Shown: positions 441 through 64,000 of the stretch, piece after piece
How positions within the stretch are numbered: the first letter of the stretch is position 1
Layout: each line of letters begins with the position of its first letter
Origin: Lepidurus packardi
Taxonomy: Eukaryota > Arthropoda > Branchiopoda > Notostraca > Triopsidae
Assembly (NCBI GenBank): GCA_023053545.1
Contig: JAKZAN010000067.1
Coordinates: forward strand, 124,001 to 188,000
Direction: 5' to 3'
Length of the DNA stretch: 64,000 nt
Made by a program: the position numbers and the translations under genes
Notes under the pieces: generated by a model
Databases searched by the model: none
What the model saw: the letters and a program-made list of their open reading frames with translations, nothing else
Told to the model about the DNA's origin: nothing

Positions 441-455
441 GACTGAATTAATTCC

Positions 456-34930: not shown

Positions 34931-36000
34931 ATTAATTCCTTACGGACTGAATTAATTCCTTACGGACTGAATTAATTCCTTACGGACTGAATTAATTACT
35001 TACGGACTGAATTAATTCCTTACGGACTGAATTAATTCCTTACGGACTGAATTAATTCCTTACGGACTGAATTAATTCATTACGGACTTAATTAAATCCT
35101 TACAGACTGAATTAATTCCTTATGGACTGAATTAATTCCTTACGGACTGAATTAATTCCTTACGGACTGAATTAATACCTTACGGACTGAATTAAATCCT
35201 TACGGACTGAATTAATTCCTTACGGACTGAATTAATTCCTTACGGACTTATTAATTCCTTTCGGACTTAATTAATTCCTTACGTACTTAATTAATTCCTT
35301 ACGGTCTGAATTAATTCCGTACGGATTTTATTAATTCCTTACGGACTGAATTAATTCATTACGGACTGAATTAATCCATTACGGACTGAATTATTTTCTT
35401 ACGAATTGAAGTTATTCCTTACGGACTGAATTAATTACTTACGGACTAAATTATTTCGGACTGAATTAATTCCTTACGGACTAAATTAATTCCTTACGGA
35501 CTGAATTAATTCATTACGGACTGAATTAATTCCTTACGGACTGAATTAATTCCTTACGGACCTAATTAATTCCTTACGGACGGAATTAATTCCTTACGGA
35601 CTGAATTAATTCATTACGGACTTAATTAAGTCCTTGCGGTCTGAATTAATTCCGTACGGATTTAATTAATTCCTTGCGGACTGAATTAATTCTTTACGGA
35701 CTGAATTAATTCCTTATGGACTTAATTAATTCCGTAAGGAATGAATGAATTAATTACGGACTGAAATAATTCCTTACGGACTGAATTAATTCCGTAGGGG
35801 TTATATTAATTCCTTACGGACTGAATTAATTCTTTACGGACTGAATTAATTCATTATGGACTTAATTAATTCCGTAAGGAATGAATGAATTAATTACGGA
35901 TTGAAATAATTCCTTACGGACTGAATTAATTCCTTACGGACTGAATTAATTCGTTACGGACTGAATTAATTCCTTACGGACTGAATTAATTCCTTACGGA
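34930..36000. repeat. Degenerate block after the 1,944-bp HOR
   Basis: Register errors and private variants cluster here. A 19-bp monomer, GGACTTATTAATTCC..., lies near 35246. A 15-bp monomer (GGACTAAATTATTTC joined to GGACTG) near 35445 marks an abrupt switch from family I to a GGACCTAATT/GGACGGAATT series. CTTGCGG occurs near 35635 and 35673. The pair CCGTAGGGGTTATATT near 35792 divides 40 bp as 19 and 21. CCGTAAGG modules occur near 35731 and 35871. No long period is evident. Confidence 0.78.
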
Positions 36001-36009
36001 CTGAATTAA

Positions 36010-36480
36010 TTCTTTAGGATTGATTGAATTCCGTTCTTACTGAATTAATTCCTTACGTACTGAATAAATTCCTTAATTAATTCCTTACGGACTGAATTAA
36101 TTCCTTAATTAATTCCTTACTTACTGAATTAATTCCTTACGGACTGAATTAACTACTTAGGGACTGAATTAATTCCTAAGGGACTTAATTAAATCCTTGG
36201 GGACTGAATTAATTACTTTCTTACTGAATTAATTCCTTACGGACTGAATGAATTCCTTACGGACTGAATTAATTCCTTAATTAATTCCTTACGGACTGAA
36301 TTAATTCCTTAATTAATTCCTTACTTACTGAATTAATTCCTTACGGACTGAATTAACTACTTAGGGACTGAATTAATTCCTAAGGGACTTAATTAAATCC
36401 TTACAGACTGAATTAATTCCTTACGGACTGAATTAATTCCTTACGGACTGAATTAATTCCTTACGGACTGAATTAATTCC
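36010..36480. repeat. CpG-poor divergent module, duplicated at 204 bp
   Basis: The most diverged run of monomers with the 20-bp register still readable. Junctions that are normally TTACGGAC read TTACTTACTG, CTTAGGGACTG, CTAAGGGACTT and CTTGGGGACTG. The series beginning AACTACTTAGGGAC occurs at 36151 and 36355, 204 bp apart. 12-bp short units are packed densely, several between 36070 and 36310. A unique CCTTTATTAATTCC junction follows at 36479. A related CTACTTAGGG monomer occurs near 23948. Confidence 0.78.
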
Positions 36481-39400: not shown

Positions 39401-42400
39401 TTAATTAATCCATTACGGACTGAATTATTTCCTTACGAACTGAAGTTATTCCTTACGGACTGAATTAATTACTTACGGACTAAATTATTTCCTTACGTAC
39501 TGAAATAATTCCTTATGGACTGAATTAATTCCTTACGAACTGAATTAATTCCTTACGGACTGAATTAATTCCTTAATTAATTCCTTAAGGACTGAATTAA
39601 TTTCATACGGACTGAATTAATTCCTTACGGACTGAATTAATACCTTACGGACTGAAATAATTCCTTACGGACTGAATTAATTCCTTACGGACTGAATTAA
39701 TTCGTTATGGACTTAATTAATTCCTTACGGACTGAATTAGTTCCTTACGGACTGAATTATTTCCTTACGGACTGAATTAATTCTTTAGGATTGATTGAAT
39801 TCCGTTCTTACTGAATTAATTCCTTACGGACTGAATTAATTCCTTAATTAATTCCTTACGGACTTAATTAATTCCTTACGGAATGAATTAATACCTTACG
39901 GACTGAATTAAATCCTGACGGACTAAATTAATTCCTTACGGTCTGAATTAAATCATTACGGACTGAATTAATTCCTTACGGACTGAATTAATTCATTACG
40001 GACCTAATTAATTCCTTACGGACGGAATTAATCCTTTACGGACTTAATTAATTCCTTACGGACTTAATTAATTCCTTACGTACTTAATTAAATCCTTACG
40101 GTCTGAATTAAATCCGTACGGATTTAATTAATTCCTTACGGACTGAATTAAATCCTTACGGTCTGAATTAATTCCGTACGGATTTAATTAATTCCTTACG
40201 GACTGAATTAAATCCTTACGGACTGAATTAATTCATTATGGACTTAATTAATTCCGTAAGGAATGAATGAGTTAATTACGGACTGAATTAATTCCTTACG
40301 GCCTGAATTATTTCCTTACGGACTGAATTAATTTCATACGGACTGAAATAATTCATTACAGACTTAATTAATTCCTTACGGACTGAATTAATTCCTTACG
40401 GACTTAATTAATTCCTTACGGACTTAATTAATTCCTTACGGACTTAATTAATTCCTTACGGACTAAATTAATTCCTTACGGACTGAACTAATTCATTACG
40501 GACTGAATTAATTCCTTACGGACTGAATTAATTACTTACGGACTAAATTATTTCCTTACGTACTGAAATAATTCCTTATGGACTGAATTAATTCCTTACG
40601 GACTGAATTAATTCCTTACGGACTGAATTAATTCCTTAATTAATTCCTTACGGACTGAATTAATTTCATACGGACTGAATTAATTACTTACGGACTGAAT
40701 TATTTCCTTACGTACTGAAGTTATTCCTTACGGACTGAATTAATACCTTACGGACTGAATTAAATCCTTACGGACAGAATTAATTCCTTACGGACTGAAT
40801 TAATACCTTACGGACTGAATTAATTCCTTACGGACTGAATTAATTCCTTATGGACTGAATTATTTCCTTACGGACTGAATTAATTCTTTAGGATTGATTG
40901 AATTCCTTTCTTATTGAATTAATTCCTTACGGACTGAATTAATTCCTTAATTAATTCCTTACGGACTGAATTAATTTCATACGGACGGAATTAATTTATT
41001 ACGGACTTAATTAATCCATTACGGACTGAATTAATTCCTTACGTACTGAACTTATTCCTTACGGACTGAATTAATTCCTTACGGACTGAATTAATATCTT
41101 ACGGACTGAATTAAATCCTTACGGACAGAACTAATTCCTTACGGACTGAATTAATTCTTTAGGATTGATTGATTTCCATTTTTACTGAATTAATTCCTTA
41201 CGGACTGAATTAATTCTTTAGGATTGATTGAATTCCATTCTTACTGAATTAATTCCTTACGGACTGAATTAATTCCTTACGGACTTAATTAATTCCTTAC
41301 GGACTTAATTAATTCCTTACGGACTTAATTAATTCCTTATGGACTAAATTAATTCCTTACGGACTGAATTAATTCATTACGGACTGAATTAATTCCTTAC
41401 AGACTGAATTAATTCCTTATGGACTTAACTAATTCCGTAAGGAATGAATTAATTAATTACGGACTGAAATAATTCCTTACGGACTGAATTAATTCCTTAC
41501 GGACTGAATTAATTCCTTAATTAATTCCTTACGGACTGAATTAATTTCATACGGACTGAATTAATTCATTTCGGACTTAATTAATCAATTACGGACTGAA
41601 TTAATTCCTTACGTAATGAACTTATTCCTTACGGACTGAATTAATTCCTTACGGACTGAATTAATTCCTTACGGACTGAATTAATTCCTTACGGACTGAA
41701 CTAATTCCTTACGGACTGAATTAATACCTTACGGACTGAATTAAATCCTTACGGACTGAATTAATTCCTTACGGACTGAATTAGTTCCTTACGGACTGAA
41801 CTAATTCCTTACGGACTGAATTAATTCCTTACGGTCTGAATTAATTCCGTACGGATTTTATTAATTCCTTACGGACTGAATTAATTCATTACGGACTTAA
41901 TTAATCCATTACGGACTGAATTATTTCCTTACGAACTGAAGTTATTCCTTACGGACTGAATTAATTACTTACGGACTAAATTATTTCCTTACGTACTGAA
42001 ATAATTCCTTATGGACTGAATTAATTCCTTACGGACTGAATTAATTCCTTACGGACTGAATTAATTTCATACGGACTGAATTAATTACTTACGGACTGAA
42101 TTATTTCCTTACGTACTGAAGTTATTCCTTACGGACTGAATTAATACCTTACGGACTGAATTAAATCCTTACGGACAGAATTAATTCCTTACGAACTGAA
42201 TTAATTCCTTACGGACTGAATTAATTCCTTACGTACTGAATTAATTCCTTACGGACTGAATTAATTCCTTACGGACTGAATTAATTCATTACGGACTTAA
42301 TTAAATCCTTACAGACTGAATTAATTCCTTACGGACTGAATTAATTCCTTACGGACTGAATTAATTCCTTTATTAATTCCTTACGGACTGAATTAATTCC

Positions 42401-43250
42401 TTACGGACTGAATTAATTCCTTACGGACTGAATTAATACCTTACGGACTGAATTAAATCCTTACGGACTGAATTAATTCCTTACGGACTGAATTAGTTCC
42501 TTACGTACTGAATTAATTCCTTACGGACTGAATTAATTCCTTTCGGACTTAATTAATTCCTTACGTACTTAATTAATTCCTTACGGTCTGAATTAATTCC
42601 GTACGGATTTTATTAATTCCTTACGGACTGAATTAATTCATTACGGACTTAATTAATCCATTACGGACTGAATTATTACCTTACGAACTGAAGTTATTCC
42701 TTACGGACTGAATTAATTACTTACGGACTAAATTATTTCCTTACGTACTGAAATTATTCCTTACGGACTGAATTAATTCCTTACGGACTGAATTATTCCT
42801 TACGGACTGAATTAATTCCTTAATTAATTCCTTACGGACTGAATTAATTCCTTAATTAATTCCTTACGGACTGAATTAATTTCATACGGACTGAATTAAT
42901 TACTTACGGACTGAATTATTTCCTTAAGTACTGAAGTTATTCCTTACGGACTGAATTAATACCTTACGGACTGAATTAAATCCTTACGGACAGAATTAAT
43001 TCCTTACGAACTGAATTAATTCCTTACGGACTGAATTAATTCCTTAATTAATTCCTTAAGGACTGAATTAATTTCATACGGACTGAATTAATTACTTACG
43101 GACTGAATTATTTCCTTAAGTACTGAAGTTATTCCTTACGGACTGAATTAATACCTTACGGACTGAATTAATTCCTTACGGACTGAATTTATTCCTTACG
43201 GACTGAATTAATTCATTACGTACTTAATTAAATCCTTACAGACTGAATTT
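36385..43250. repeat. 5,888-bp-spaced duplication flanking 2.4-2.6-kb HORs
   Basis: CCTTTATTAATT occurs only at 36479 and 42367, and GAATTATTACC recurs at 36782/42670, both 5,888 bp apart. Sequence from about 36385 to 37270 is therefore repeated at about 42270-43160. The second copy has a 19-bp monomer (GAATTATTCC) near 42790. Between them lie 2,376-bp (GGTCTGAATTAAATC 37564/39940; GGATTGATTG module 37405/39781), 2,596-bp (38288/40884) and 2,536-bp (38619/41155; 38678/41214) repeats. The drop from 2,596 to 2,536 is a three-monomer deletion near 41140. Confidence 0.85.
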
Positions 43251-46200
43251 ATTCCTTATGGACTTAATTAATTCCGTAAGGAATGAATTAATTAATTACG
43301 GACTGAAATAATTCCTTACGGACTGAATTAATTCCTTACGGACTGAATTAATTCGTTATGGACTTAATTAATTCCTTACGGACTGAATTAGTTCCTTACG
43401 GACTGAATTATTTCCATACGGACTGAATTAATTCTTTAGGATTGATTGAATTCCGTTCTTACTGAATTAATTCCTTACGGACTGAATTAATTCCTTAATT
43501 AATTCCTTACGGACTTAATTAATTCCTTACGGAATGAATTAATACCTTACGGACTGAATTAAATCCTTACGGACTAAATAAATTCCTTACGGTCTGAATT
43601 AAATCATTACGGACTGAATTAATTCCTTACGGACTGAATTAATTCATTACGGACCTAATTAATTCCTTACGGACGGAATTAATCCTTTACGGACTTAATT
43701 AATTCCTTACGGACTTAATTAATTCCTTACGTACTTAATTAAATCCTTACGGTCTGAATTAAATCCGTACGGATTTAATTAATTCCTTACGGACTGAATT
43801 AAATCCTTACGGTCTGAATTAATTCCGTACGGATTTAATTAATTCCTTACGGACTGAATTAAATCCTTACGGACTGAATTAATTCATTATGGACTTAATT
43901 AATTCCGTAAGGAATGAATGAGTTAATTACGTACTGAATTATTTCCTTACGGCCTGAATTATTTCCTTACGGACTGAATTAATTTCATACGGACTGAAAT
44001 AATTCATTACAGACTTAATTAATCCATTACGGACTGAATTAATTCCTTACGTACTGAACTTATTCCTTACGGACTGAATTAATTCCTTACGGACTGAATT
44101 AATTCCTTACGGACTTAATTAATTCCTTACGGACTTAATTAATTCCTTACGGACTTAATTAATTCCTTACGGACTAAATTAATTCCTTACGGACTGAACT
44201 AATTCATTACGGACTGAATTAATTCCTTACGGACTGAATTAATTCCTTACGGACCTAATTAATTCCTTACGGACGTAATTAATTCCTTACGGATTGAATT
44301 AAATCCTTACGGACTGAATTAATTCCGTACGGATTATATTAATTCCTTACGGACTGAATTAATTCTTTACGGATTATATTAATTCCTTACGGACTGAATT
44401 AATTCTTTACGGACTGAATTAATTCCTTACGGACTGAATTAAATCCTTACGGACTGAATTAATTCCGTACGGATTACATTAATTCCTTACGGACTGAATT
44501 AATTCTTTACGGACTGAATTAATTCATTATGGACTTAATTAATTCCGTAAGGAATAAATGAATTAATTACGGACTGAAATAATTCCTTACGGACTGAATT
44601 AATTCCTTACGGACTAAATTAATTCGTTACGGACTGAATTAATTCCTTACGGACTGAATTAATTCCTTACGGACTGAATTATTTCCTTGCGGACTGAATT
44701 AATTCTTTAGGATTGATTGAATTCCGTTCTTACTGAATTAATTCCTTACGGACTGAATTAATTCCTTAATTAATTCCTTACGGACTGAATTAATTCCTTA
44801 CGGACTTAATTAATTCCTTACGGACTGAATTAATTCCTTACAAACTGAATTAATTCCTTACGGACTGAATTATTTCCTTACGGACTGAATTAATTCTTTA
44901 GGATTGATTGAATTCCTTTCTTACTGAATTAATTCCTTACGGACTGAATTAATTCCTTACGGACTGAATTAATACCTTACGGACTGAATTAATTCCTTAC
45001 GGACTGAATTAATTCCTTATGGACTGAATTATTTCCTTACGGACTGAATTAATTCTTTAGGATTGATTGAATTCCTTTCTTATTGAATTAATTCCTTACG
45101 GACTGAGTTAATTTCATACGGACTGAATTAATTTATTACGGACTGAACTTATTCCTTACGGACTGAATTAATTCCTTACGGACTGAATTAATACCTTACG
45201 GACTGAATTAAATCCTTACGGACAGAACTAATTCCTTACGGACTGAATTAATTCCTTACGGACTTAATTAATTCCTTACGGACTGAATTTTTTCCTTACG
45301 GACTGAATTAATTCTTAAGGATTGATTGATTTCCATTTTTACTGAATTAATTCCTTACGGACTGAATTAATTCTTTAGGATTGATTGAATTCCATTCTTA
45401 CTGAATTAATTCCTTACGGACTGAATTAATTCCTTACGGACTTAATTAATTCCTTACGGACTTAATTAATTCCTTACGGACTTAATTAATTCCTTATGGA
45501 CTAAATTAATTCCTTACGGACTGAATTAATTCATTACGGACTGAATTAATTCCTTACAGACTGAATTAATTCCTTATGGGCTTAACTAATTCCGTAAGGA
45601 ATGAATTATTTAATTACGGACTGAAATAATTCCTTACGGACTGAATTAATTCCTTACGGACTGAATTAATTCCTTACGGACTGAATTAATTCCTTAATTA
45701 ATTCCTTACGGACTGAATTAATTTCATACGGACTGAATTAATTCATTTCGGACTTAATTAATCAATTACGGACTGAATTAATTCCTTACGTAATGAACTT
45801 ATTCCTTACGGACTGAATTAATTCCTTACGGACTGAATTAATTCCTTACGGACTGAACTAATTCCTTACGGACTGAATTAATACCTTACGGACTGAATTA
45901 AATCCTTACGGACTGAATTAATTCCTTACGGACTGAATTAGTTCCTTACTGACTGAACTAATTCCTTACGGACTGAATAAATTCCTTTCGGATTTAATTA
46001 ATTCCTTACGTACTTAATTAATTCCTTACGGTCTGAATTAATTCCGAACGGATTTTATTAATTCCTTACGGACTGAATTAATTCATTACGGACTTAATTA
46101 ATCCATTACGGACTGAATTATTTCCTTACGAACTGAAGTTATTCCTTACGGACTGAATTAGTTACTTACGGACTAAATTATTTCCTTACGTACTGAAATA

Positions 46201-46260
46201 ATTCCTTATGGACTGAATTAATTCCTTACGGACTGAACTAATTCCTTACGGACTGAATTA
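43250..46260. repeat. Irregular block with dense GGATTGATTG modules
   Basis: Five modules lie within 670 bp, at 44703, 44894, 45053, 45312 and 45371, the densest cluster in the window. The last pair is only 59 bp apart, the same tight pair seen at 38619/38678 and 41155/41214. The module at 45312 reads TTCTTAAGG, a private variant. Between 44320 and 44480 a GGATTATATT/GGATTACATT monomer alternates with CTTTACGG monomers. The remainder repeats the GGACCTAATT/GGACGGAATT series and the GGTCTG series. Confidence 0.8.
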
Positions 46261-48899
46261 ATTCCTTAATTAATTCCTTACGGACTGAATTAATTTCATA
46301 CGGACTGAATTAATTACTTACGGACTGAATTATTTCCTTACGTACTGAAGTTATTCCTTACGGACTGAATTAATACCTTACGGACTGAATTAAATCCTTA
46401 CGGACAGAATTAATTCCGTACGAACTGAATTAATTCCTTACGGACTGAATTAATTCCTTACGTACTGAATTAATTTCTTACGGACTGAATTAATTCCTTA
46501 CGGACTGAATTAATTCATTACGGACTTAATTAAATCCTTACAGACTGAATTAATTCCTTACGGACTGAATTAATTCCTTACGGACTGAATTAATTCCTTA
46601 ATTAATTCCTTACGGACTGAATTAATTCCTTACGGACTGAATTAATTCCTTACGGACTGAATTAATACCTTACGGACTGAATTAAATCCTTACGGACTGA
46701 ATTAATTCCTTACGGACTGAATTAGTTCCTTACGGACTGAATTAATTCCTTACGGACTGAATTAATTCCTTTCGGACTAAATTAATTCCTTACGTACTTA
46801 ATTAATTCCTTACGGTCTGAATTAATTCCGTACGGATTTTATTAATTCCTTACGGACTGAATTAATTCATTACGGACTTAATTAATCCATTACGGACTGA
46901 ATTATTACCTTACGAACTGAAGTTATTCCTTACGGACTGAATTAATTACTTACGGACTAAATTATTTCCTTACGTACTGAAATTATTCCTTACGGACTGA
47001 ATTAATTCCTTACGGACTGAATTAATTCCTTAATTAATTCCTTACGGACGGAATAAATTCCTTAATTAATTCCTTAAGGACTGAATTAATTTCATACGGA
47101 CTGAATTAATTACTTACGGACTGAATTATTTCCTTAAGTACTGAAGTTATTCCTTACGGACTGAATTAATACCTTACGGACTGAATTAAATCCTTACGGA
47201 CAGAATTAATTCCTTACGAACTGAATTAATTCCTTACGTACTTAATTAAATCCTTACAGACTGAATTTATTCCTTATGGACTTAATTAATTCCGTAAGGA
47301 ATGAATTAATTAATTACGGACTGAATTAATTCCTTACGGACTGAATTAATTCGTTATGGACTTAATTAATTCCTTACGGACTGAATTAATTCCTTACGGA
47401 CTGAATTAATTCCTTACGGACTGAATTAATTCATTACGGACTTAATTAAATCCTTACAGACTGAATTAATTCCTTACGGACTGAATTAATTCCTTACGGA
47501 CTGAATTAATTCCTTAATTAATTCCTTACGGACTGAATTAATTCCTTACGGACTGAATTAATTCCTTACGGACTGAATTAATTCCTTACGGACTGAATTA
47601 ATACCTTACGGACTGAATTAAATCCTTACGGACTGAATTAATTCCTTACGGACTGAATTAGTTCCTTACGTACTGAATTAATTCCTTACGGACTGAATTA
47701 ATTCCTTTCGGACTTAATTAATTCCTTACGTACTTAATTAATTCCTTACGGTCTGAATTAATTCCGTACGGATTTTATTAATTCCTTACGGACTGAATTA
47801 ATTCATTACGGACTTAATTAATCCATTACGGACTGAATTATTACCTTACGAACTGAAGTTATTCCTTACGGACTGAATTAATTACTTACGGACTAAATTA
47901 TTTCCTTACGTACTGAAATTATTCCTTACGGACTGAATTAATTCCTTACGGACTGAATTAATTCCTTACGGACTGAATTAATTCCTTAATTAATTCCTTA
48001 CGGACTGAATTAATTTCATACGGACTGAATTAATTCCTTACGGACTGAATTAATTCCTTACGGACTGAATTAATTCCTTAATTAATTCCTTAAGGACTGA
48101 ATTAATTCCTTACGGACTGAATTAATTCCTTAATTAATTCCTTAAGGACTGAATTAATTTCATACGGACTGAATTAATTACTTACGGACTGAATTATTTC
48201 CTTAAGTATTCAAGTTATTCCTTACGGACTGAATTAATACCTTACGGACTGAATTAAATCCTTACGGACAGAATTAATTCCTTACGAACTGAATTAATTC
48301 CTTACGGACTGAATTAATTCCTTACGTACTGAATTAATTCCTTACGGACTGAATTTATTCCTTACGGACTGAATTAATTCATTACGTACTTAATTAAATC
48401 CTTACAGACTGAATTTATTCCTTATGGACTTAATTAATTCCGTAAGGAATGAATTAATTAATTACGGACTGAAATAATTCCTTACGGACTGAATTAATTC
48501 CTTACGGACTGAATTAATTCGTTATGGACTTAATTAATTCCTTACGGACTGAATTAGTTCCTTACGGACTGAATTATTTCCTTACGGACTGAATTAATTC
48601 TTTAGGATTGATTGAATTCCGTTCTTACTGAATTAATTCCTTACGGACTGAATTAATTCCTTAATTAATTCCTTACGGACTTAATTAATTCCTTACGGAA
48701 TGAATTAATACCTTACGGACTGAATTAAATCCTTACGGACTAAATTAATTCCTTACGGTCTGAATTAAATCATTACGGACTGAATTAATTCCTTACGGAC
48801 TGAATTAATTCATTACGGACCTAATTAATTCCTTACGGACGGAATTAATCCTTTACGGATTTAATTAATTCCTTACGGACTGAATTAAATCCTTTCGGA

Positions 48900-49030
48900 C
48901 TTAATTAATTCATTACGGACTTTATTAATTCATTACGGACTTAATTAATTCATCACGGACTTAATTAATTCATTACGGACTTAATTAATTCATCACGGAC
49001 TTAATTAATTCATTACGGACTTAATTAAAT
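48900..49030. repeat. 40-bp dimer: alternating CATTACGG / CATCACGG monomers
   Basis: Monomers GGACTTAATTAATTCATTAC and GGACTTAATTAATTCATCAC alternate, CATCACGG lying near 48951 and 48991. The second HOR copy has the same pair near 52567 and 52607. Related blocks at about 55720, 59865, 60985 and 62879 retain a single CATCAC. It is a two-monomer micro-HOR that distinguishes older from younger copies in the right half. Confidence 0.82.
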
Positions 49031-49436
49031 CCTTACGGACTGAATTAATTCATTATGGACTTAATTAATTCCGTATAGAATGAATGAGTTAATTACGGAC
49101 TGAATTAATTCCTTACGGCCTGAATTATTTCTTTACGGACTGAATTAATTTCATACGGACTGAATTAATTCATTACAGACTTAATTAATCCATTACGGAC
49201 TGAATTAATTCCTTACGTACTGAACTTATTCCTTACGGACTGAATTAATTCCTTACGGACTGAATTAATTCCTTACGGACTTAATTAATTCCTTACGGAC
49301 TTAATTAATTCCTTACGGACTTAATTAATTCCTTACGGACTGAATTAATTCATTACGGACTGAATTAATTCCTTACGGACTGAATTAATTCCTTACGGAC
49401 CTAATTAATTCCTTACGGACGGAATTAATTCCTTAC

Positions 49437-49456
49437 GGAGGGAATTAATCCCTTAC
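49437..49456 (+). repeat. GGAGGGAATTAATCCC monomer, right-end specific
   Basis: A GC-richer monomer with a short inverted repeat, GGGA-ATTAA-TCCC. It occurs at 49437, 53052, 56222, 56962, 58442, 60369, 61489 and 63384 and was not noticed left of 49 kb. It always follows a GGACCTAATT, GGACGGAATT pair and precedes GTACTTAATT. It is a private marker of the 49-64 kb subfamily. Confidence 0.87.
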
Positions 49457-52400
49457 GTACTTAATTAATTCCTTACGGTCTGAATTAATTCCGTGCGGAT
49501 TTAATTAATTCCTTACGGACTGAATTAAATCCTTACGGACTGAATTAATTCATTATGGACTTAATTAATTCCGTAAGAAATGAATGAATTAATTACGGAC
49601 TGAAATAATTCCTTACGGACTGAATTAATTCCTTACGGACTGAATTAATTCGTTACGGACTGAATTAATTTCATACGGACTGAATTAATTCATTACTGAC
49701 TTAATTAATCCATTACGGACCTAATTAATTCCTTACGTACTGAACTTATTCCTTACGGACTTAATTAATTCCTTACGGACTGAATTAATACCTTACGGAC
49801 TGAATGAAATCCTTACGGACTAAATTAATTCCTTACGGACTGAATTAATTCATTACGGACCTAATTCATTCCTTACTGACGGAATTAATTCCTTACGTAC
49901 TTAATTAATTCCTTACGGTCTGAATTAATTCCGTACGGATTTAATTAATTCCTTACGGACTGAATTAAATCCTTACGGACTGAATTAATTCATTATGGAC
50001 TTAATTAATTCCGTAAGGAATGAAATAATTCCTTACGGACTGAAATAATTCCTTACGGACTGAATTAATTCCTTATGGACTGAATTAATTCCTTACGGAC
50101 TGAACTAATTCCTTACGGACTGAATTAATTCCTTAATTAATTCCTTACGGACTGAATTAATTTCATACGGACTGAATTAATTACTTACGGACTGAATTAT
50201 TTCCTTACGTACTGAAGTTATTCCTTACGGACTGAATTAATACCTTACGGACTGAATTAAATCCTTACGGACAGAATTAATTCCGTACGAACTGAATTAA
50301 TTCCTTACGGACTGAATTAATTCCTTACGTACTGAATTAATTTCTTACGGACTGAATTAATTCCTTACGGACTGAATTAATTCATTACGGACTTAATTAA
50401 ATCCTTACAGACTGAATTAATTCCTTACGGACTGAATTAATTCCTTACGGACTGAATTAATTCCTTAATTAATTCCTTACGGACTGAATTAATTCCTTAC
50501 GGACTGAATTAATTCCTTACGGACTGAATTAATACCTTACGGACTGAATTAAATCCTTACGGACTGAATTAATTCCTTACGGACTGAATTAGTTCCTTAC
50601 GGACTGAATTAATTCCTTACGGACTGAATTAATTCCTTTCGGACTAAATTAATTCCTTACGTACTTAATTAATTCCTTACGGTCTGAATTAATTCCGTAC
50701 GGATTTTATTAATTCCTTACGGACTGAATTAATTCATTACGGACTTAATTAATCCATTACGGACTGAATTATTACCTTACGAACTGAAGTTATTCCTTAC
50801 GGACTGAATTAATTACTTACGGACTAAATTATTTCCTTACGTACTGAAATTATTCCTTACGGACTGAATTAATTCCTTACGGACTGAATTAATTCCTTAA
50901 TTAATTCCTTACGGACGGAATAAATTCCTTAATTAATTCCTTAAGGACTGAATTAATTTCATACGGACTGAATTAATTACTTACGGACTGAATTATTTCC
51001 TTAAGTACTGAAGTTATTCCTTACGGACTGAATTAATACCTTACGGACTGAATTAAATCCTTACGGACAGAATTAATTCCTTACGAACTGAATTAATTCC
51101 TTACGTACTTAATTAAATCCTTACAGACTGAATTTATTCCTTATGGACTTAATTAATTCCGTAAGGAATGAATTAATTAATTACGGACTGAATTAATTCC
51201 TTACGGACTGAATTAATTCGTTATGGACTTAATTAATTCCTTACGGACTGAATTAATTCCTTACGGACTGAATTAATTCCTTACGGACTGAATTAATTCA
51301 TTACGGACTTAATTAAATCCTTACAGACTGAATTAATTCCTTACGGACTGAATTAATTCCTTACGGACTGAATTAATTCCTTAATTAATTCCTTACGGAC
51401 TGAATTAATTCCTTACGGACTGAATTAATTCCTTACGGACTGAATTAATTCCTTACGGACTGAATTAATACCTTACGGACTGAATTAAATCCTTACGGAC
51501 TGAATTAATTCCTTACGGACTGAATTAGTTCCTTACGTACTGAATTAATTCCTTACGGACTGAATTAATTCCTTTCGGACTTAATTAATTCCTTACGTAC
51601 TTAATTAATTCCTTACGGTCTGAATTAATTCCATACGGATTTTATTAATTCCTTACGGACTGAATTAATTCATTACGGACTTAATTAATCCATTACGGAC
51701 TGAATTATTACCTTACGAACTGAAGTTATTCCTTACGGACTGAATTAATTACTTACGGACTAAATTATTTCCTTACGTACTGAAATTATTCCTTACGGAC
51801 TGAATTAATTCCTTACGGACTGAATTAATTCCTTACGGACTGAATTAATTCCTTAATTAATTCCTTACGGACTGAATTAATTTCATACGGACTGAATTAA
51901 TTCCTTACGGACTGAATTAATTCCTTACGGACTGAATTAATTCCTTAATTAATTCCTTAAGGACTGAATTAATTTCATACGGACTGAATTAATTACTTAC
52001 GGACTGAATTATTTCCTTAAGTATTCAAGTTATTCCTTACGGACTGAATTAATACCTTACGGACTGAATTAAATCCTTACGGACAGAATTAATTCCTTAC
52101 GGACTGAATTACTTCCTTACGGACTGAATTAATTCGTTATGGACTTAATTAATTCCTTACGGACTGAATTAGTTCCTTACGGACTGAATTATTTCCTTAC
52201 GGACTGAATTAATTCTTTAGGATTGATTGAATTCCGTTCTTACTGAATTAATTCCTTACGGACTGAATTAATTCCTTAATTAATTCCTTACGGACTTAAT
52301 TAATTCCTTACGGAATGAATTAATACCTTACGGACTGAATTAAATCCTTACGGACTAAATTAATTCCTTACGGTCTGAATTAAATCATTACGGACTGAAT

Positions 52401-52619
52401 TAATTCCTTACGGACTGAATTAATTCATTACGGACCTAATTAATTCCTTACGGACGGAATTAATACTTTACGGATTTAATTAATTCCTTACGGACTGAAT
52501 TAAATCCTTTCGGACTTAATTAATTCATTACGGATTTTATTAATTCATTACGGACTTAATTAATTCATCACGGACTTAATTAATTCATTACGGACTTAAT
52601 TAATTCATCACGGACTTAA

Positions 52620-54250
52620 TTAATTCATTACGGACTTAATTAAATCCTTACGGACTGAATTAATTCATTATGGACTTAATTAATTCCGTATAGAATGAAT
52701 GAGTTAATTACGGACTGAATTAATTCCTTACGGCCTGAATTATTTCTTTACGGACTGAATTAATTTCATACGGACTGAATTAATTCATTACAGACTTAAT
52801 TAATCCATTACGGACTGAATTAATTCCTTACGTACTGAACTTATTCCTTACGGACTGAATTAATTCCTTACGGACTGAATTAATTCCTTACGGACTTAAT
52901 TAATTCCTTACGGACTTAATTAATTCCTTACGGACTTAATTAATTCCTTACGGACTGAATTAATTCATTACGGACTGAATTAATTCCTTACGGACTGAAT
53001 TAATTCCTTACGGACCTAATTAATTCCTTACGGACGGAATTAATTCCTTACGGAGGGAATTAATCCCTTACGTACTTAATTAATTCCTTACGGTCTGAAT
53101 TAATTCCGTGCGGATTTAATTAATTCCTTACGGACTGAATTAAATCCTTACGGACTGAATTAATTCATTATGGACTTAATTAATTCCGTAAGAAATGAAT
53201 GAATTAATTACGGACTGAAATAATTCCTTACGGACTGAATTAATTCCTTACGGACTGAATTAATTCGTTACGGACTGAATTAATTTCATACGGACTGAAT
53301 TAATTCATTACTGACTTAATTAATCCATTACGGACCTAATTAATTCCTTACGTACTGAACTTATTCCTTACGGACTTAATTAATTCCTTACGGACTGAAT
53401 TAATACCTTACGGACTGAATGAAATCCTTACGGACTAAATTAATTCCTTACGGACTGAATTAATTCATTACGGACCTAATTCATTCCTTACTGACGGAAT
53501 TAATTCCTTACGTACTTAATTAATTCCTTACGGTCTGAATTAATTCCGTACGGATTTAATTAATTCCTTACGGACTGAATTAAATCCTTACGGACTGAAT
53601 TAATTCATTATGGACTTAATTAATTCCGTAAGGAATGAATGAATTAATTACGGACTGAAATAATTCCTTACGGACTGAATTAATTCCTTACGGACTGAAT
53701 TAATTCGTTACGGACTGAATTAATTTCATACGGACTGAATTAATTCATTACTGACTTAATTAATCCATTACGGACTTAATTAATTCCTTACGTACTGAAC
53801 TTATTCCTTACGGACTTAATTAATTCCTTACGGACTGAATTAATACCTTACGGACTGAATGAAATCCTTACGGACTAAATTAATTCCTTACGGACTGAAT
53901 TAATTCATTACGGACCTAATTCATTCCTTACTGACGGAATTAATTCCTTACGTACTTAATTAATTCCTTACGGTCTGAATTAATTCCGTACGGATTTAAT
54001 TAATTCCTTACGGACTGAATTAAATCCTTACGGACTGAATTAATTCATTATGGACTTAATTAATTCCGTAAGGAATGAATGAGTTAATTACGGACTGAAA
54101 TAATTCCTTACAGACTGAATTAATTCCTTACGGACTGAATTAATTCCTTACGGACTGAATTATTTCCTTACGGACTGAATTATTTCCTTACGGACTGAAT
54201 AAATTTCATACGGACTGAATTAATTCATTACGGACTTAATTAATCCATTA
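52620..54250. repeat. 3,910-bp-spaced duplication, first copy
   Basis: CCGTATAGAATG (in blocks at 52681 and 56591), CCGTAAGAAATG (53186/57096) and GAATAAATTTCATACGG (AAATTTCATA 54201/58111) recur at exactly 3,910 bp. About 1.6 kb matches 56530-58160. The second copy has a private change near 57665 (GACTTATATAATCC for GACTTAATTAATCC). The shared sequence stops at about 54250, directly where the CATTAAT patch begins; the second copy instead continues with normal monomers. Confidence 0.88.
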
Positions 54251-54254
54251 CGGA

Positions 54255-54367
54255 CATTAATCCATTAATTCCATTAATTTCATTAATAATTTCATTAATA
54301 ATTTCATTAATTTTCATTAATAATTTCATTAATTTCATTAATTCCATTAATACATTAATCCATTAAT
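54255..54367 (+). repeat. CATTAAT patch, unique interruption of the array
   Basis: Twelve CATTAAT motifs start at 54255, 54263, 54272, 54281, 54293, 54305, 54315, 54327, 54336, 54345, 54353 and 54361. Spacings are 8, 9, 9, 12, 12, 10, 12, 9, 9, 8, 8, almost symmetric about the centre. Spacer bases follow the same order in and out (C, TC, TT, AATTT ... AATTT, TT, TC, A, C). GGACTG, CpG and the 20-bp register are absent across about 110 bp. The motif resembles the TTAATCCATTAC monomer just upstream, so local expansion of a satellite fragment is likelier than an insertion. It lies between the ends of the 3,910- and 4,147-bp duplications and was seen once in the window. Confidence 0.93.
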
Positions 54368-56530
54368 TCCTTACGGACTGAATTAATTCGTTATGGACTT
54401 AATTAATTCCTTACGGACTGAATTAATTCCTTACGGACTGAATTAATTCCTTACGGACTGAATTAATTCATTACGGACTTAATTAAATCCTTACCGACTG
54501 AATTAATTCCTTACGGACTGAATTAATTCCTTACGGACTGAATTAATTCCTTAATTAATTCCTTACGGACTGAATTAATTCCTTACGGACTGAATTAATT
54601 CCTTACGGACTGAATTAATTCCTTACGGACTGAATTAATACCTTACGGACTGAATTAAATCCTTACGGACTGAATTAATTCCTTACGGACTGAATTAGTT
54701 CCTTACGTACTGAATTAATTCCTTACGGACTGAATTAATTCCTTTCGGACTTAATTAATTCCTTACGTACTTAATTAATTCCTTACGGTCTGAATTAATT
54801 CCGTACGGATTTTATTAATTCCTTACGGACTGAATTAATTCATTACGGACTTAATTAATCCATTACGGACTGAATTATTACCTTACGAACTGAAGTTATT
54901 CCTTACGGACTGAATTAATTACTTACGGACTAAATTATTTCCTTACGTACTGAAATTATTCCTTACGGACTGAATTAATTCCTTACGGACTGAATTAATT
55001 CCTTACGGACTGAATTAATTCCTTAATTAATTCCTTACGGACTGAATTAATTTCATACGGACTGAATTAATTCCTTACGGACTGAATTAATTCCTTACGG
55101 ACTGAATTAATTCCTTAATTAATTCCTTAAGGACTGAATTAATTTCATACGGACTGAATTAATTCCTTACGGACTGAATTAATACCTTACGGACTGAATT
55201 AAATCCTTACGGACAGAATTAATTCCTTACGAACTGAATTAATTCCTTACGGACTGAATTAATTCCTTACGGACTGAATTAATTCGTTATGGACTTAATT
55301 AATTCCTTACGGACTGAATTAGTTCCTTACGGACTGAATTATTTCCTTACGGACTGAATTAATTCTTTAGGATTGATTGAATTCCGTTCTTACTGAATTA
55401 ATTCCTTACGGACTGAATTAATTCCTTAATTAATTCCTTACGGACTTAATTAATTCCTTACGGAATGAATTAATACCTTACGGACTGAATTAAATCCTTA
55501 CGGACTAAATTAATTCCTTACGGTCTGAATTAAATCATTACGGACTGAATTAATTCCTTACGGACTGAATTAATTCATTACGGACCTAATTAATTCCTTA
55601 CGGACGGAATTAATCCTTTACGGATTTAATTAATTCCTTACGGACTGAATTAAATCCTTTCGGACTTAATTAATTCATTACGGACTTTATTAATTCATTA
55701 CGGACTTAATTAATTCATCACGGACTTAATTAATTCATTACGGACTTAATTAATTCCTTACGGACTGAATTAATTCCTTACGGACTGAATTAAATCCTTA
55801 CGGACTGAATTAATTCATTATGGACTTAATTAATTCCGTAAGGAATGAATGAGTTAATTACGGACTGAATTAATTCCTTACGGCCTGAATTATTTCTTTA
55901 CGGACTGAATTAATTTCATACGGACTGAATTAATTCATTACAGACTTAATTAATCCATTACGGACTGAATTAATTCCTTACGTACTGAACTTATTCCTTA
56001 CGGACTGAATTAATTCCTTACGGACTGAATTAATTCCTTACGGACTTAATTAATTCCTTACGGACTTAATTAATTCCTTACGGACTTAATTAATTCCTTA
56101 CGGAATAAATTAATTCCTTACGGACTGAATTAATTCATTACGGACTGAATTAATTCCTTACGGACTGAATTAATTCCTTACGGACCTAATTAATTCCTTA
56201 CGGACGGAATTAATTCCTTACGGAGGGAATTAATCCCTTACGTACTTAATTAATTCCTTACGGTCTGAATTAATTCCGTACGGATTTAATTAATTCCTTA
56301 CGGACTGAATTAAATCCTTACGGACTGAATTAATTCATTATGGACTTAATTAATTCCGTAAGGAATGAATGAATTAATTACGGACTGAAATAATTCCTTA
56401 CGGACTGAATTAATTCCTTACGGACTGAATTAATTCCTTACGGACTGAATTAATTCGTTACGGACTGAATTAATTTCATACGGACTGAATTAATTCATTA
56501 CTGACTTAATTAATCCATTACGGACTTAAT
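54368..56530. repeat. 4,147-bp-spaced duplication, first copy
   Basis: TTCGTTATGG (54387/58534), TTACCGAC (54491/58638), the GGATTGATTG module (55363/59510) and GGAGGG (56222/60369) are all separated by exactly 4,147 bp. The match covers about 2.16 kb and ends near 56530/60680, where this copy switches into sequence shared with 52.6 kb. The 4,147-bp spacing fits 209 units with four 12-bp units and one 19-bp monomer. The AATAAATT variant near 56105 is present in both copies. Confidence 0.9.
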
Positions 56531-58160
56531 TAATTCATTACGGACTTAATTAAATCCTTACGGACTGAATTAATTCATTATGGACTTAATTAATTCCGTA
56601 TAGAATGAATGAGTTAATTACGGACTGAATTAATTCCTTACGGCCTGAATTATTTCTTTACGGACTGAATTAATTTCATACGGACTGAATTAATTCATTA
56701 CAGACTTAATTAATCCATTACGGACTGAATTAATTCCTTACGTACTGAACTTATTCCTTACGGACTGAATTAATTCCTTACGGACTGAATTAATTCCTTA
56801 CGGACTTAATTAATTCCTTACGGACTTAATTAATTCCTTACGGACTTAATTAATTCCTTACGGACTGAATTAATTCATTACGGACTGAATTAATTCCTTA
56901 CGGACTGAATTAATTCCTTACGGACCTAATTAATTCCTTACGGACGGAATTAATTCCTTACGGAGGGAATTAATCCCTTACGTACTTAATTAATTCCTTA
57001 CGGTCTGAATTAATTCCGTGCGGATTTAATTAATTCCTTACGGACTGAATTAAATCCTTACGGACTGAATTAATTCATTATGGACTTAATTAATTCCGTA
57101 AGAAATGAATGAATTAATTACGGACTGAAATAATTCCTTACGGACTGAATTAATTCCTTACGGACTGAATTAATTCGTTACGGACTGAATTAATTTCATA
57201 CGGACTGAATTAATTCATTACTGACTTAATTAATCCATTACGGACCTAATTAATTCCTTACGTACTGAACTTATTCCTTACGGACTTAATTAATTCCTTA
57301 CGGACTGAATTAATACCTTACGGACTGAATGAAATCCTTACGGACTAAATTAATTCCTTACGGACTGAATTAATTCATTACGGACCTAATTCATTCCTTA
57401 CTGACGGAATTAATTCCTTACGTACTTAATTAATTCCTTACGGTCTGAATTAATTCCGTACGGATTTAATTAATTCCTTACGGACTGAATTAAATCCTTA
57501 CGGACTGAATTAATTCATTATGGACTTAATTAATTCCGTAAGGAATGAATGAATTAATTACGGACTGAAATAATTCCTTACGGACTGAATTAATTCCTTA
57601 CGGACTGAATTAATTCGTTACGGACTGAATTAATTTCATACGGACTGAATTAATTCATTACTGACTTATATAATCCATTACGGACTTAATTAATTCCTTA
57701 CGTACTGAACTTATTCCTTACGGACTTAATTAATTCCTTACGGACTGAATTAATACCTTACGGACTGAATGAAATCCTTACGGACTAAATTAATTCCTTA
57801 CGGACTGAATTAATTCATTACGGACCTAATTCATTCCTTACTGACGGAATTAATTCCTTACGTACTTAATTAATTCCTTACGGTCTGAATTAATTCCGTA
57901 CGGATTTAATTAATTCCTTACGGACTGAATTAAATCCTTACGGACTGAATTAATTCATTATGGACTTAATTAATTCCGTAAGGAATGAATGAGTTAATTA
58001 CGGACTGAAATAATTCCTTACAGACTGAATTAATTCCTTACGGACTGAATTAATTCCTTACGGACTGAATTATTTCCTTACGGACTGAATTATTTCCTTA
58101 CGGACTGAATAAATTTCATACGGACTGAATTAATTCATTACGGACTTAATTAATCCATTA
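56530..58160. repeat. 3,910-bp-spaced duplication, second copy
   Basis: Copy of 52620-54250. Its left junction is at about 56530, where TCCATTACGGACTTAATT is followed by TTCATTACGGACTT instead of the GTACTGAACTTATTCC series of the neighbouring block. It holds GGAGGG at 56962, 740 bp after the previous one. Its private TATATAATCC change near 57665 separates it from the first copy. Confidence 0.88.
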
Positions 58161-58510
58161 CGGACTGAATTAATCCATTACGGACTGAATTAATTCCTTA
58201 CGTACTGAACTTATTCCTTACGGACTGAATTAATTCCTTACGGACTGAATTAATTCCTTACGGACTTAATTAATTCCTTAGGGACTTAATTAATTCCTTA
58301 CGGACTTAATTAATTCCTTACGGACTAAATTAATTCCTTACGGACTGAATTAATTCATTACGGACTGAATTAATTCCTTACGGACTGAATTAATTCCTTA
58401 CGGACCTAATTAATTCCTTACGGACGGAATTAATTCCTTACGGAGGGAATTAATCCCTTACGTACTTAATTAATTCCTTACGGTCTGAATTAATTCCGTA
58501 CGGACTGAAT
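58160..58510. repeat. Normal monomers where the sister copy has the CATTAAT patch
   Basis: About 340 bp of ordinary monomers, including TCCATTAC twice, GTACTGAACTTATTCC, GGACTTAATT monomers, GGACCTAATT, GGACGGAATT and GGAGGG (58442). The block ends at about 58501, where CCGTACGG is followed by ACTGAATT instead of the usual ATTTAATT. That is the crossover into the 4,147-bp-spaced copy. It sits at the same place relative to its neighbours as 54255-54367. Confidence 0.83.
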
Positions 58511-60680
58511 TAATTCCTTACGGACTGAATTAATTCGTTATGGACTTAATTAATTCCTTACGGACTGAATTAATTCCTTACGGACTGAATTAATTCCTTA
58601 CGGACTGAATTAATTCATTACGGACTTAATTAAATCCTTACCGACTGAATTAATTCCTTACGGACTGAATTAATTCCTTACGGACTGAATTAATTCCTTA
58701 ATTAATTCCTTACGGACTGAATTAATTCCTTACGGACTGAATTAATTCCTTACGGACTGAATTAATTCCTTACGGACTGAATTAATACCTTACGGACTGA
58801 ATTAAATCCTTACGGACTGAATTAATTCCTTACGGACTGAATTAGTTCCTTACGTACTGAATTAATTCCTTACGGACTGAATTAATTCCTTTCGGACTTA
58901 ATTAATTCCTTACGTACTTAATTAATTCCTTACGGTCTGAATTAATTCCGTACGGATTTTATTAATTCCTTACGGACTGAATTAATTCATTACGGACTTA
59001 ATTAATCCATTACGGACTGAATTATTACCTTACGAACTGAAGTTATTCCTTACGGACTGAATTAATTACTTACGGACTAAATTATTTCCTTACGTACTGA
59101 AATTATTCCTTACGGACTGAATTAATTCCTTACGGACTGAATTAATTCCTTACGGACTGAATTAATTCCTTAATTAATTCCTTACGGACTGAATTAATTT
59201 CATACGGACTGAATTAATTCCTTACGGACTGAATTAATTCCTTACGGACTGAATTAATTCCTTAATTAATTCCTTAAGGACTGAATTAATTTCATACGGA
59301 CTGAATTAATTCCTTACGGACTGAATTAATACCTTACGGACTGAATTAAATCCTTACGGACAGAATTAATTCCTTACGAACTGAATTAATTCCTTACGGA
59401 CTGAATTAATTCCTTACGGACTGAATTAATTCGTTATGGACTTAATTAATTCCTTACGGACTGAATTAGTTCCTTACGGACTGAATTATTTCCTTACGGA
59501 CTGAATTAATTCTTTAGGATTGATTGAATTCCGTTCTTACTGAATTAATTCCTTACGGACTGAATTAATTCCTTAATTAATTCCTTACGGACTTAATTAA
59601 TTCCTTACGGAATGAATTAATACCTTACGGACTGAATTAAATCCTTACGGACTAAATTAATTCCTTACGGTCTGAATTAAATCATTACGGACTGAATTAA
59701 TTCCTTACGGACTGAATTAATTCATTACGGACCTAATTAATTCCTTACGGACGGAATTAATCCTTTACGGATTTAATTAATTCCTTACGGACTGAATTAA
59801 ATCCTTTCGGACTTAATTAATTCATTACGGACTTTATTAATTCATTACGGACTTAATTAATTCATCACGGACTTAATTAATTCATTACGGACTTAATTAA
59901 TTCCTTACGGACTGAATTAATTCCTTACGGACTGAATTAAATCCTTACGGACTGAATTAATTCATTATGGACTTAATTAATTCCGTAAGGAATGAATGAG
60001 TTAATTACGGACTGAATTAATTCCTTACGGCCTGAATTATTTCTTTACGGACTGAATTAATTTCATACGGACTGAATTAATTCATTACAGACTTAATTAA
60101 TCCATTACGGACTGAATTAATTCCTTACGTACTGAACTTATTCCTTACGGACTGAATTAATTCCTTACGGACTGAATTAATTCCTTACGGACTTAATTAA
60201 TTCCTTACGGACTTAATTAATTCCTTACGGACTTAATTAATTCCTTACGGAATAAATTAATTCCTTACGGACTGAATTAATTCATTACGGACTGAATTAA
60301 TTCCTTACGGACTGAATTAATTCCTTACGGACCTAATTAATTCCTTACGGACGGAATTAATTCCTTACGGAGGGAATTAATCCCTTACGTACTTAATTAA
60401 TTCCTTACGGTCTGAATTAATTCCGTACGGATTTAATTAATTCCTTACGGACTGAATTAAATCCTTACGGACTGAATTAATTCATTATGGACTTAATTAA
60501 TTCCGTAAGGAATGAATGAATTAATTACGGACTGAAATAATTCCTTACGGACTGAATTAATTCCTTACGGACTGAATTAATTCCTTACGGACTGAATTAA
60601 TTCGTTACGGACTGAATTAATTTCATACGGACTGAATTAATTCATTACTGACTTAATTAATCCATTACGGACTTAATTAA
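58510..60680. repeat. 4,147-bp-spaced duplication, second copy
   Basis: Copy of 54368-56530, with the same ordered anchors (TTCGTTATGG 58534, TTACCGAC 58638, GGATTGATTG module 59510, GGAGGG 60369). Part of it, from about 59150, is duplicated again at 3,015 bp (62170 onward). The segment 59801-60920 is repeated directly as 60921-62020. The region was therefore used as a template at least twice. Confidence 0.88.
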
Positions 60681-62040
60681 TTCCTTACGTACTGAACTTA
60701 TTCCTTACGGACTTAATTAATTCCTTACGGACTGAATTAATACCTTACGGACTGAATGAAATCCTTACGGACTAAATTAATTCCTTACGGACTGAATTAA
60801 TTCATTACGGACCTAATTCATTCCTTACTGACGGAATTAATTCCTTACGTACTTAATTAATTCCTTACGGTCTGAATTAATTCCGTACGGATTTAATTAA
60901 TTCCTTACGGACTGAATTAAATCCTTTCGGACTTAATTAATTCATTACGGACTTTATTAATTCATTACGGACTTAATTAATTCATCACGGACTTAATTAA
61001 TTCATTACGGACTTAATTAATTCCTTACGGACTGAATTAATTCCTTACGGACTGAATTAAATCCTTACGGACTGAATTAATTCATTATGGACTTAATTAA
61101 TTCCGTAAGGAATGAATGAGTTAATTACGGACTGAATTAATTCCTTACGGCCTGAATTATTTCTTTACGGACTGAATTAATTTCATACGGACTGAATTAA
61201 TTCATTACAGACTTAATTAATCCATTACGGACTGAATTAATTCCTTACGTACTGAACTTATTCCTTACGGACTGAATTAATTCCTTACGGACTGAATTAA
61301 TTCCTTACGGACTTAATTAATTCCTTACGGACTTAATTAATTCCTTACGGACTTAATTAATTCCTTACGGACTAAATTAATTCCTTACGGACTGAATTAA
61401 TTCATTACGGACTGAATTATTTCCTTACGGACTGAATTAATTCCTTACGGACCTAATTAATTCCTTACGGACGGAATTAATTCCTTACGGAGGGAATTAA
61501 TCCCTTACGTACTTAATTAATTCCTTACGGTCTGAATTAATTCCGTACGGATTTAATTAATTCCTTACGGACTGAATTAAATCCTTACGGACTGAATTAA
61601 TTCATTATGGACTTAATTAATTCCGTAAGGAATGAATGAATTAATTACGGACTGAAATAATTCCTTACGGACTGAATTAATTCCTTACGGACTGAATTAA
61701 TTCGTTACGGACTGAATTAATTTCATACGGACTGAATTAATTCATTACTGACTTAATTAATCCATTACGGACTTAATTAATTCCTTACGTACTGAACTTA
61801 TTCCTTACGGACTTAATTAATTCCTTACGGACTGAATTAATACCTTACGGACTGAATGAAATCCTTACGGACTAAATTAATTCCTTACGGACTGAATTAA
61901 TTCATTACGGACCTAATTCATTCCTTACTGACGGAATTAATTCCTTACGTACTTAATTAATTCCTTACGGTCTGAATTAATTCCGTACGGATTTAATTAA
62001 TTCCTTACGGACTGAATTAAATCCTTACGGACTGAATTAA
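59801..62040. repeat. 1,120/1,100-bp tandem duplication
   Basis: ATCCTTTCGG at 59801 and 60921 and GGAGGG at 60369 and 61489 are spaced exactly 1,120 bp. TTCGTTACGG is spaced 1,100 bp (60601/61701) because the second copy lacks one consensus monomer. Other differences are AATAAATT (60250) against ACTAAATT (61370) and one GAATTATTTCC monomer near 61420. Confidence 0.87.
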
Positions 62041-62169
62041 TTCATTATGGACTTAATTAATTCCGTAAGGAATGAATGAGTTAATTACGGACTGAAATAA
62101 TTCCTTACAGACTGAATTAATTCCTTACGGACTGAATTAATTCCTTACGGACTGAATTAATTCCTTACG

Positions 62170-64000
62170 GACTGAATTAATTCCTTAATTAATTCCTTAC
62201 GGACTGAATTAATTTCATACGGACTGAATTAATTCCTTACGGACTGAATTAATTCCTTACGGACTGAATTAATTCCTTAATTAATTCCTTAAGGACTGAA
62301 TTAATTTCATACGGACTGAATTAATTCCTTACGGACTGAATTAATACCTTACGGACTGAATTAAATCCTTACGGACAGAATTAATTCCTTACGAACTGAA
62401 TTAATTCCTTACGGACTGAATTAATTCCTTACGGACTGAATTAATTCGTTATGGACTTAATTAATTCCTTACGGACTGAATTAGTTCCTTACGGACTGAA
62501 TTATTTCCTTACGGACTGAATTAATTCTTTAGGATTGATTGAATTCCGTTCTTACTGAATTAATTCCTTACGGACTGAATTAATTCCTTAATTAATTCCT
62601 TACGGACTTAATTAATTCCTTACGGAATGAATTAATACCTTACGGACTGAATTAAATCCTTACGGACTAAATTAATTCCTTACGGTCTGAATTAAATCAT
62701 TACGGACTGAATTAATTCCTTACGGACTGAATTAATTCATTACGGACCTAATTAATTCCTTACGGACGGAATTAATCCTTTACGGATTTAATTAATTCCT
62801 TACGGACTGAATTAAATCCTTTCGGACTTAATTAATTCATTACGGACTTTATTAATTCATTACGGACTTAATTAATTCATCACGGACTTAATTAATTCAT
62901 TACGGACTTAATTAATTCCTTACGGACTGAATTAATTCCTTACGGACTGAATTAAATCCTTACGGACTGAATTAATTCATTATGGACTTAATTAATTCCG
63001 TAAGGAATGAATGAGTTAATTACGGACTGAATTAATTCCTTACGGCCTGAATTATTTCTTTACGGACTGAATTAATTTCATACGGACTGAATTAATTCAT
63101 TACAGACTTAATTAATCCATTACGGACTGAATTAATTCCTTACGTACTGAACTTATTCCTTACGGACTGAATTAATTCCTTACGGACTGAATTAATTCCT
63201 TACGGACTTAATTAATTCCTTACGGACTTAATTAATTCCTTACGGACTTAATTAATTCCTTACGGAATAAATTAATTCCTTACGGACTGAATTAATTCAT
63301 TACGGACTGAATTAATTCCTTACGGACTGAATTAATTCCTTACGGACCTAATTAATTCCTTACGGACGGAATTAATTCCTTACGGAGGGAATTAATCCCT
63401 TACGTACTTAATTAATTCCTTACGGTCTGAATTAATTCCGTACGGATTTAATTAATTCCTTACGGACTGAATTAAATCCTTACGGACTGAATTAATTCAT
63501 TATGGACTTAATTAATTCCGTAAGGAATGAATGAATTAATTACGGACTGAAATAATTCCTTACGGACTGAATTAATTCCTTACGGACTGAATTAATTCCT
63601 TACGGACTGAATTAATTCGTTACGGACTGAATTAATTTCATACGGACTGAATTAATTCATTACTGACTTAATTAATCCATTACGGACTTAATTAATTCCT
63701 TACGTACTGAACTTATTCCTTACGGACTTAATTAATTCCTTACGGACTGAATTAATACCTTACGGACTGAATGAAATCCTTACGGACTAAATTAATTCCT
63801 TACGGACTGAATTAATTCATTACGGACCTAATTCATTCCTTACTGACGGAATTAATTCCTTACGTACTTAATTAATTCCTTACGGTCTGAATTAATTCCG
63901 TACGGATTTAATTAATTCCTTACGGACTGAATTAAATCCTTTCGGACTTAATTAATTCATTACGGACTTTATTAATTCATTACGGACTTAATTAATTCAT
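62170..64000. repeat. 3,015-bp-spaced duplication running off the right edge
   Basis: The short-unit junction (59168/62183), AAGGACTG (59276/62291), the GGATTGATTG module (59510/62525), GGAGGG (60369/63384) and ATCCTTTCGG (60921/63936) are all spaced 3,015 bp. The match continues to the last base, so the window ends inside a HOR copy. The spacing fits 152 units with three 12-bp units and one 19-bp monomer (3,040 minus 25). Confidence 0.9.

Follow-up and report, generated by a model that had tools for sequence, protein, structure and literature searches.

How does a cluster of short CATTAAT repeats come to lie inside an array of 20-bp satellite monomers in Lepidurus packardi, and does it record the repair of a break, the birth of a new satellite, or a fault of the assembly? 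The stretch of DNA analyzed here (the window, 64,000 nucleotides) corresponds to positions 124,001–188,000 of the 204,423-bp contig JAKZAN010000067.1, which is called C56 in the following. Positions without a contig name refer to the window, and the assembly that was searched comprised 108.6 Mb.

The CATTAAT patch within the satellite array

Monomer analysis, motif scanning, and sequence comparison delimited the following features:

1..63998, forward strand: host array of the 20-bp satellite GGACTGAATTAATTCCTTAC (monomer analysis of the window)
54256..54361, forward strand: the patch, 106 bp in place of 343 bp of ordinary monomers (motif scan and comparison with the twin copy described below)
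54254..54272, forward strand: left copy of a 19-bp direct repeat, ACATTAATCCATTAATTCC (sequence comparison)
54352..54370, forward strand: right copy of ACATTAATCCATTAATTCC, 98 bp from the left copy and continuing into an ordinary monomer

The patch is composed of short-period ATTAAT units with the linkers CC, TCC, TTC, AATTTC, TTTC, and AC. A recount of its 12 CATTAAT motifs (starting at 54255, 54263, 54272, 54281, 54293, 54305, 54315, 54327, 54336, 54345, 54353, and 54361) reproduced exactly the spacings given in the preliminary description (8, 9, 9, 12, 12, 10, 12, 9, 9, 8, and 8), the spacers from left to right being C, TC, TT, AATTT, AATTT, TTT, AATTT, TT, TC, A, and C. The other 13 of the 25 CATTAAT motifs of the window are isolated. 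As an assembly of 12 tandem units of 8–12 bp at one locus, the patch has the makeup of a minisatellite, in which the units measure about 6–100 bp. The absence of GGACTG and CpG that had been pointed out earlier also holds, because positions 54255–54367 contain no G at all; the longest G-free run of C56 (121 bp) lies around the patch, and the next longest measures 38 bp. In a wrap-around comparison with the 20-bp consensus, 45 stretches of C56 scored below the cut-off of 0.76, and among them only two non-satellite insertions (0.38) scored lower than the patch (0.58). Three further stretches of the window fell below the cut-off (lowest score 0.72), and the patch is thus rightly regarded as the main break in the register.

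Words from the edges of the patch, ATTAATCCATTA for example, occur 158 times in C56 outside it, whereas five other linker words of the patch that were tested in C56 had no occurrence elsewhere in the contig. Judged from these words, the ends of the patch look array-like and its middle units look new and without a source in the array. The earlier idea that the expansion was seeded by ATTAATCCATTA accordingly fits both ends of the patch but not its middle.

The surrounding satellite is abundant, with 29,172 exact dimers of GGACTGAATTAATTCCTTAC in the assembly and 578 in C56; scaled from the latter, its total would very roughly amount to 10 Mb. A literature text search with one rotation and one strand of the monomer yielded no match. 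The monomer consensus includes a perfect 10-bp palindrome (GAATTAATTC), and the unit spacing in the array is mostly 20, 40, or 60 bp. Short monomers of 12 bp (AATTAATTCCTT) are found, for example, at 446–470, 1396–1420, and 54541–54565. C56 contains the double word ATTAATTCCTTAATTAATTCC in 175 places, the first ten of which all lie beyond about C56:69.8 kb. Small short-unit expansions (CTACTGAATTCTTACTGAATTCTTACTGAA) at nine places in C56:70363–77954 have spread along with the array. A further segment of 2,972 bp stands twice in tandem with no mismatch between the copies (59105–62076 and 62120–65091), the second of which extends beyond the window, and the array around 59105–65091 is under rearrangement now. 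C56 also contains non-satellite insertions at 47402–47895 and 50319–52142, the latter with gag-like frames and a zinc-knuckle-like motif judged by eye. A related second 20-bp satellite, ACTGACTTAATTCATGAATT, is present in many contigs, and some of its loci continue into a ACCTGACCTC-like repeat. Elsewhere in the assembly, a mitochondrial-like COX1 copy translates under invertebrate code 5 with one stop; COX1 frames on contigs C52, C214, and C43 have no stops under the standard code, whereas the copies on large contigs are NUMT-like instead, and these three contigs are possibly bacterial.

The twin copy and the putative deletion joint

The patch is located in one copy (copy A) of a tandem duplication of approximately 4 kb, the other copy (copy B) being its twin:

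52610..54255, forward strand: left flank in copy A, equal to 56520–58165 in copy B except for 2 of 1,646 bases
54362..56536, forward strand: right flank in copy A, identical over all 2,175 bases to 58509–60683 in copy B
58166..58508, forward strand: ordinary monomers in copy B, the state before the event (343 bp, 17.15 units)
58181..58512, forward strand: putatively lost stretch on the most economical reading (332 bp)
58499..58504, forward strand: point in copy B at which one satellite sub-lineage gives way to another, within an identical stretch of 6 bp

In all, the flanks of copies A and B differ by 2 mismatches in 3,821 bases and recur 3,910 bp (left) and 4,147 bp (right) downstream, and between them copy A has 106 bp in place of the 343 bp of its twin. 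Three further relatives (C56:189102, 190142, and 192522) align without gaps with the twin over 701 bp, have 1, 1, and 3 mismatches to it within 58166–58504, and share with it the intact left joint. The 343 bp missing from copy A are thus retained by the twin and by all three relatives, the loss of sequence that is expected of an end-joining scar. Since all four carry ordinary monomers at this place, the comparison identifies these monomers as ancestral and the patch as derived and young. The two flank mismatches are adjacent (57669–57670), and because the three relatives agree there with copy A, both changes are private to the twin; the patched copy therefore has no private flank change where the relatives allow polarization.

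Alternatively, the patch could be an artefact of a difficult repeat, arising from miscalling or chimerism of a read or from an error of the consensus. Nanopore basecallers have been described as turning tandem repeats into other short repeats (PMC9414165), and the patch resembles such strand-specific miscalls in that a tandem repeat would have been read as a shorter one. Moreover, the patch occurs at one site, among the other contigs that match its 125-bp right flank with at most 1 mismatch none spans it, and a single bad molecule at a thin spot is possible. However, miscalls follow the sequence and, according to that study (PMC9414165), hit every comparable repeat, so that they should reappear wherever the sequence recurs, whereas the twin with equal flanks was called normally and the patch, unique in the assembly, is absent from all arrays of the 29,172 exact dimers. 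The end of contig C284 repeats C56:193425–195956 with 0 mismatches in 2,532 bases, and eight landmarks agree over the inferred 10,999-bp overlap of these two contigs, which may share reads. The reads look accurate, and 10,999 bp is about the length of a HiFi read, which they presumably are. A second patch of this type, at a true sequence joint on contig C1 (see below), likewise speaks against an artefact, which we judge unlikely.

How the 343 bp were replaced is suggested by the ends of the missing stretch. Both lengths, 343 and 332, depart from multiples of 20. On the most parsimonious view, the joint would lie at a shared ATTA (58177–58180 with 58509–58512), so that position 58180 would have been joined to position 58513 of the twin; such a join predicts ATTAATCCATTAATTCCTTACGG, and the patch ends on its right with precisely this sequence. 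ATTA thus joins the deletion ends as predicted, but as almost all monomers contain this word, the homology alone is of little weight. On its right side, the lost stretch ends 4 to 14 bp away from the switch between the sub-lineages, and this nearness means either that the spot was broken twice or that the two coincide by chance. Merging the two copies of ACATTAATCCATTAATTCC into one, and taking out what lies between them, yields a nearly regular array once the loss of a TGA ahead of the first ATTAAT is allowed for; two of its ATTAAT words then lie at a distance of 8 bp. Counted by sequence match alone, 21 sites in 7 other contigs show this geometry in unexpanded form, with a different spacer base (ATTAATTCATTAATTCCTTACGG).

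On balance, the patch is probably a real and young deletion-with-filler scar that resulted from a break, end joining at ATTA, and the expansion of a short repeat. The array block of approximately 4 kb would first have been duplicated in tandem, and a break would then have occurred in one of the copies. End joining at an ATTA microhomology would have sealed this break out of register, with the loss of about 332 bp and the TGA, and the joint would have placed two ATTAAT words 8 bp apart. From this seed, slipped or re-primed synthesis may have produced the 12 short units, either during the same event or shortly afterwards, and the units would have changed in length and in at least one base on the way; the A spacer may have been copied from the AC in the flank. 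Most likely, the scar is the product of ordinary mechanisms whose before-and-after state is unusually clear. The preliminary description had proposed an expansion during break repair, and this part of its interpretation gains support from the twin copy, which reveals a replacement out of step with the 20-bp unit (343 bp by 106 bp) and a putative ATTA microhomology, and from the second patch at a satellite/retroelement joint.

Scars of this kind have been described for polymerase theta (Pol theta) in C. elegans, where deletions are reported to carry templated, error-rich inserts that are primed by a single base, contain about 1 error per 30 bp, and are mostly shorter than 25 bp (PMC5068794). 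The patch is similar to the scars covered there in the deletion of a few hundred base pairs, the putative short homology at the joint, and the error-rich insert, but differs from them in the length of the insert (106 bp) and in having no demonstrable template in the flanks. A local template was not apparent, as the patch could be built from words of its own flanks no better than from random places in C56: among 3,000 such places, 542, 447, and 833 did as well or better for flanks of 40, 60, and 100 bp, respectively. The patch is therefore likened to a templated-insert scar and not classed as one, and by this likeness a pathway resembling Pol theta end joining may have acted in L. packardi. Counting against a deletion with filler are the length of the patch, which is long for such filler, the middle units without a source, and the coincidence with the lineage switch.

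The patch might instead have been imported whole from a different repeat rich in CATTAAT, and CATTAAT clusters do exist in the related satellite ACTGACTTAATTCATGAATT (19 of the 20 non-window loci examined, out of 45 matches). Yet the patch alone contains the core AATTTCATTAATAATTTCATTAAT without a mismatch, the best match elsewhere having 2 mismatches, and the related-satellite loci need 14 to 25 pieces in forward and 15 to 20 in reverse orientation to compose the patch, as against a mean of 15.5 for its own array. The related satellite was hence rejected as donor, as it explains the patch no better than the own array does, and such an import is very improbable. A match on contig C6 (79% over part of the patch) consists of a series of words resembling AATGAAAA next to genes and was put down to chance.

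Spacer order and proposed growth of the patch

The spacers had been described as mirrored on the same strand. Nine of the 11 form a palindromic order if insertions are allowed, but only two of the five pairs match about the exact middle, and the outer shells are translated rather than mirrored because the patch ends form a 19-bp direct repeat (54254–54272 equal to 54352–54370). Shuffling of the 11 spacers reached the palindromic order in 115 of 20,000 cases (974 of 20,000 by length only), and 599 of 15,752 equally smooth orders did so. For the inner eight spacers, which were chosen post hoc, 72 of 1,680 orders reach the mirror, and when the flanking linkers AC and TCC are counted it appears in 1,306 of 20,000 shuffles. 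Because the choice of what to count determines how rare the mirror is, no weight is placed on it here.

Simulations of growth with six unit types, scored for palindromic order, gave the mirror in 1 of 15,513 and 11 of 35,141 arrays under uniform unit duplication (12 of 50,654 in all), and in 16 of 20,746, 18 of 40,384, and 28 of 49,311 arrays under block duplication. The frequency was about 1 to 1.5% if growth proceeded from the youngest unit (230 of 15,401 and 482 of 34,975) or from the center (166 of 15,465 and 342 of 34,898). In these models the mirror order, if meaningful, would weakly favor inside-out growth. The earlier statement that slippage hardly gives such an order is consequently fair as far as uniform slippage is concerned; with the flanking linkers included, however, the mirror itself becomes weak. 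Centromeric satellites expand in layers, with the younger copies in the middle; the patch shares with them the ordered shells of variants, but has a size of only about 0.1 kb with 12 units, and its mirror is partial.

Minisatellites can be born by slippage between short separated repeats. The patch is similar in that two short repeats were apparently brought near each other before tandem growth, and different in that it starts within a 20-bp satellite, at a deletion joint. Slow slippage, that is, growth unit by unit over many generations after a simple deletion, is consistent with the ladder formed by the patch states (C, TC, TT, and AATTT) and with three-unit 8-bp runs in the related satellite. 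It would require that about ten units were gained while the flanks acquired no private change where tested, and that an order arose which is rare under uniform duplication in the simulations with six types. This case from flanks and order is weak, since slippage can far outpace point mutation; nonetheless, we regard slow stepwise growth as distinctly unlikely.

The self-complementary ATTAAT words fold back on paper, which would be compatible with a protein-binding or replication site under selection. Compared with dinucleotide shuffles, hairpin folding of the patch had z values of −3.49 and −4.59, and ordinary satellite one of −7.01. The order of the units adds no folding, as reordered spacers folded equally well in 267, 152, 514, and 577 of 1,000 cases, and hairpins thus do not account for that order and were rejected as its cause. 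With a single young site that is missing from the relatives, a functional element is extremely improbable. Copying by fold-back was also discarded as unlikely, because the linkers of both arms are same-sense and not complementary.

A second G-free patch

Among the matches listed in a search for clustered ATTAAT (652 matches, each place counted on both strands), at least one further stretch is comparable to the patch:

C1:13996529–13996673, reverse strand: G-free short-period stretch of 145 bp with TTAATTC- and TTAATCC-like units

It occupies the exact joint of a chromosome-end array of the GGACTGAATTAATTCCTTAC satellite and a truncated Pao-like retroelement, whose frame has matches to the Pao retrotransposon peptidase and to an integrase zinc-binding domain, and this location supports the reading as repair filler. 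No 9-mers are common to the two patches, and the word CTTAATTCTTAATTCTTAATT of the C1 patch is unique in the assembly. With this second G-free short-period scar, the CATTAAT patch remains unique in its sequence but is not the only one of its type. It is hardly the nascent satellite that had been considered: a new satellite family would comprise many copies or several loci, and since the assembly contains one site with 12 units and no second copy, the patch is at most a possible seed.

We tentatively propose, as a doubtful but possible generalization, that breaks in the satellite are closed by G-free short-period filler of up to about 150 bp, built exclusively from that half of the monomer which reads AATTAATTCC, and that such scars seed new repeats, perhaps satellites. 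If this were true, the C1 and CATTAAT scars would be its first two cases, with unrelated words and, in one of them, a twin in the state before the event. Changes of the repeat unit of satellites are usually inferred from old and blurred arrays. Here, the sequence from before the change lies four kilobases away and makes deletion, joint, and expansion readable base by base, and the second scar in the GGACTGAATTAATTCCTTAC satellite suggests that the class could be counted across the genome. If confirmed by reads, the patch would be a dated example of a short repeat born at a repair joint.
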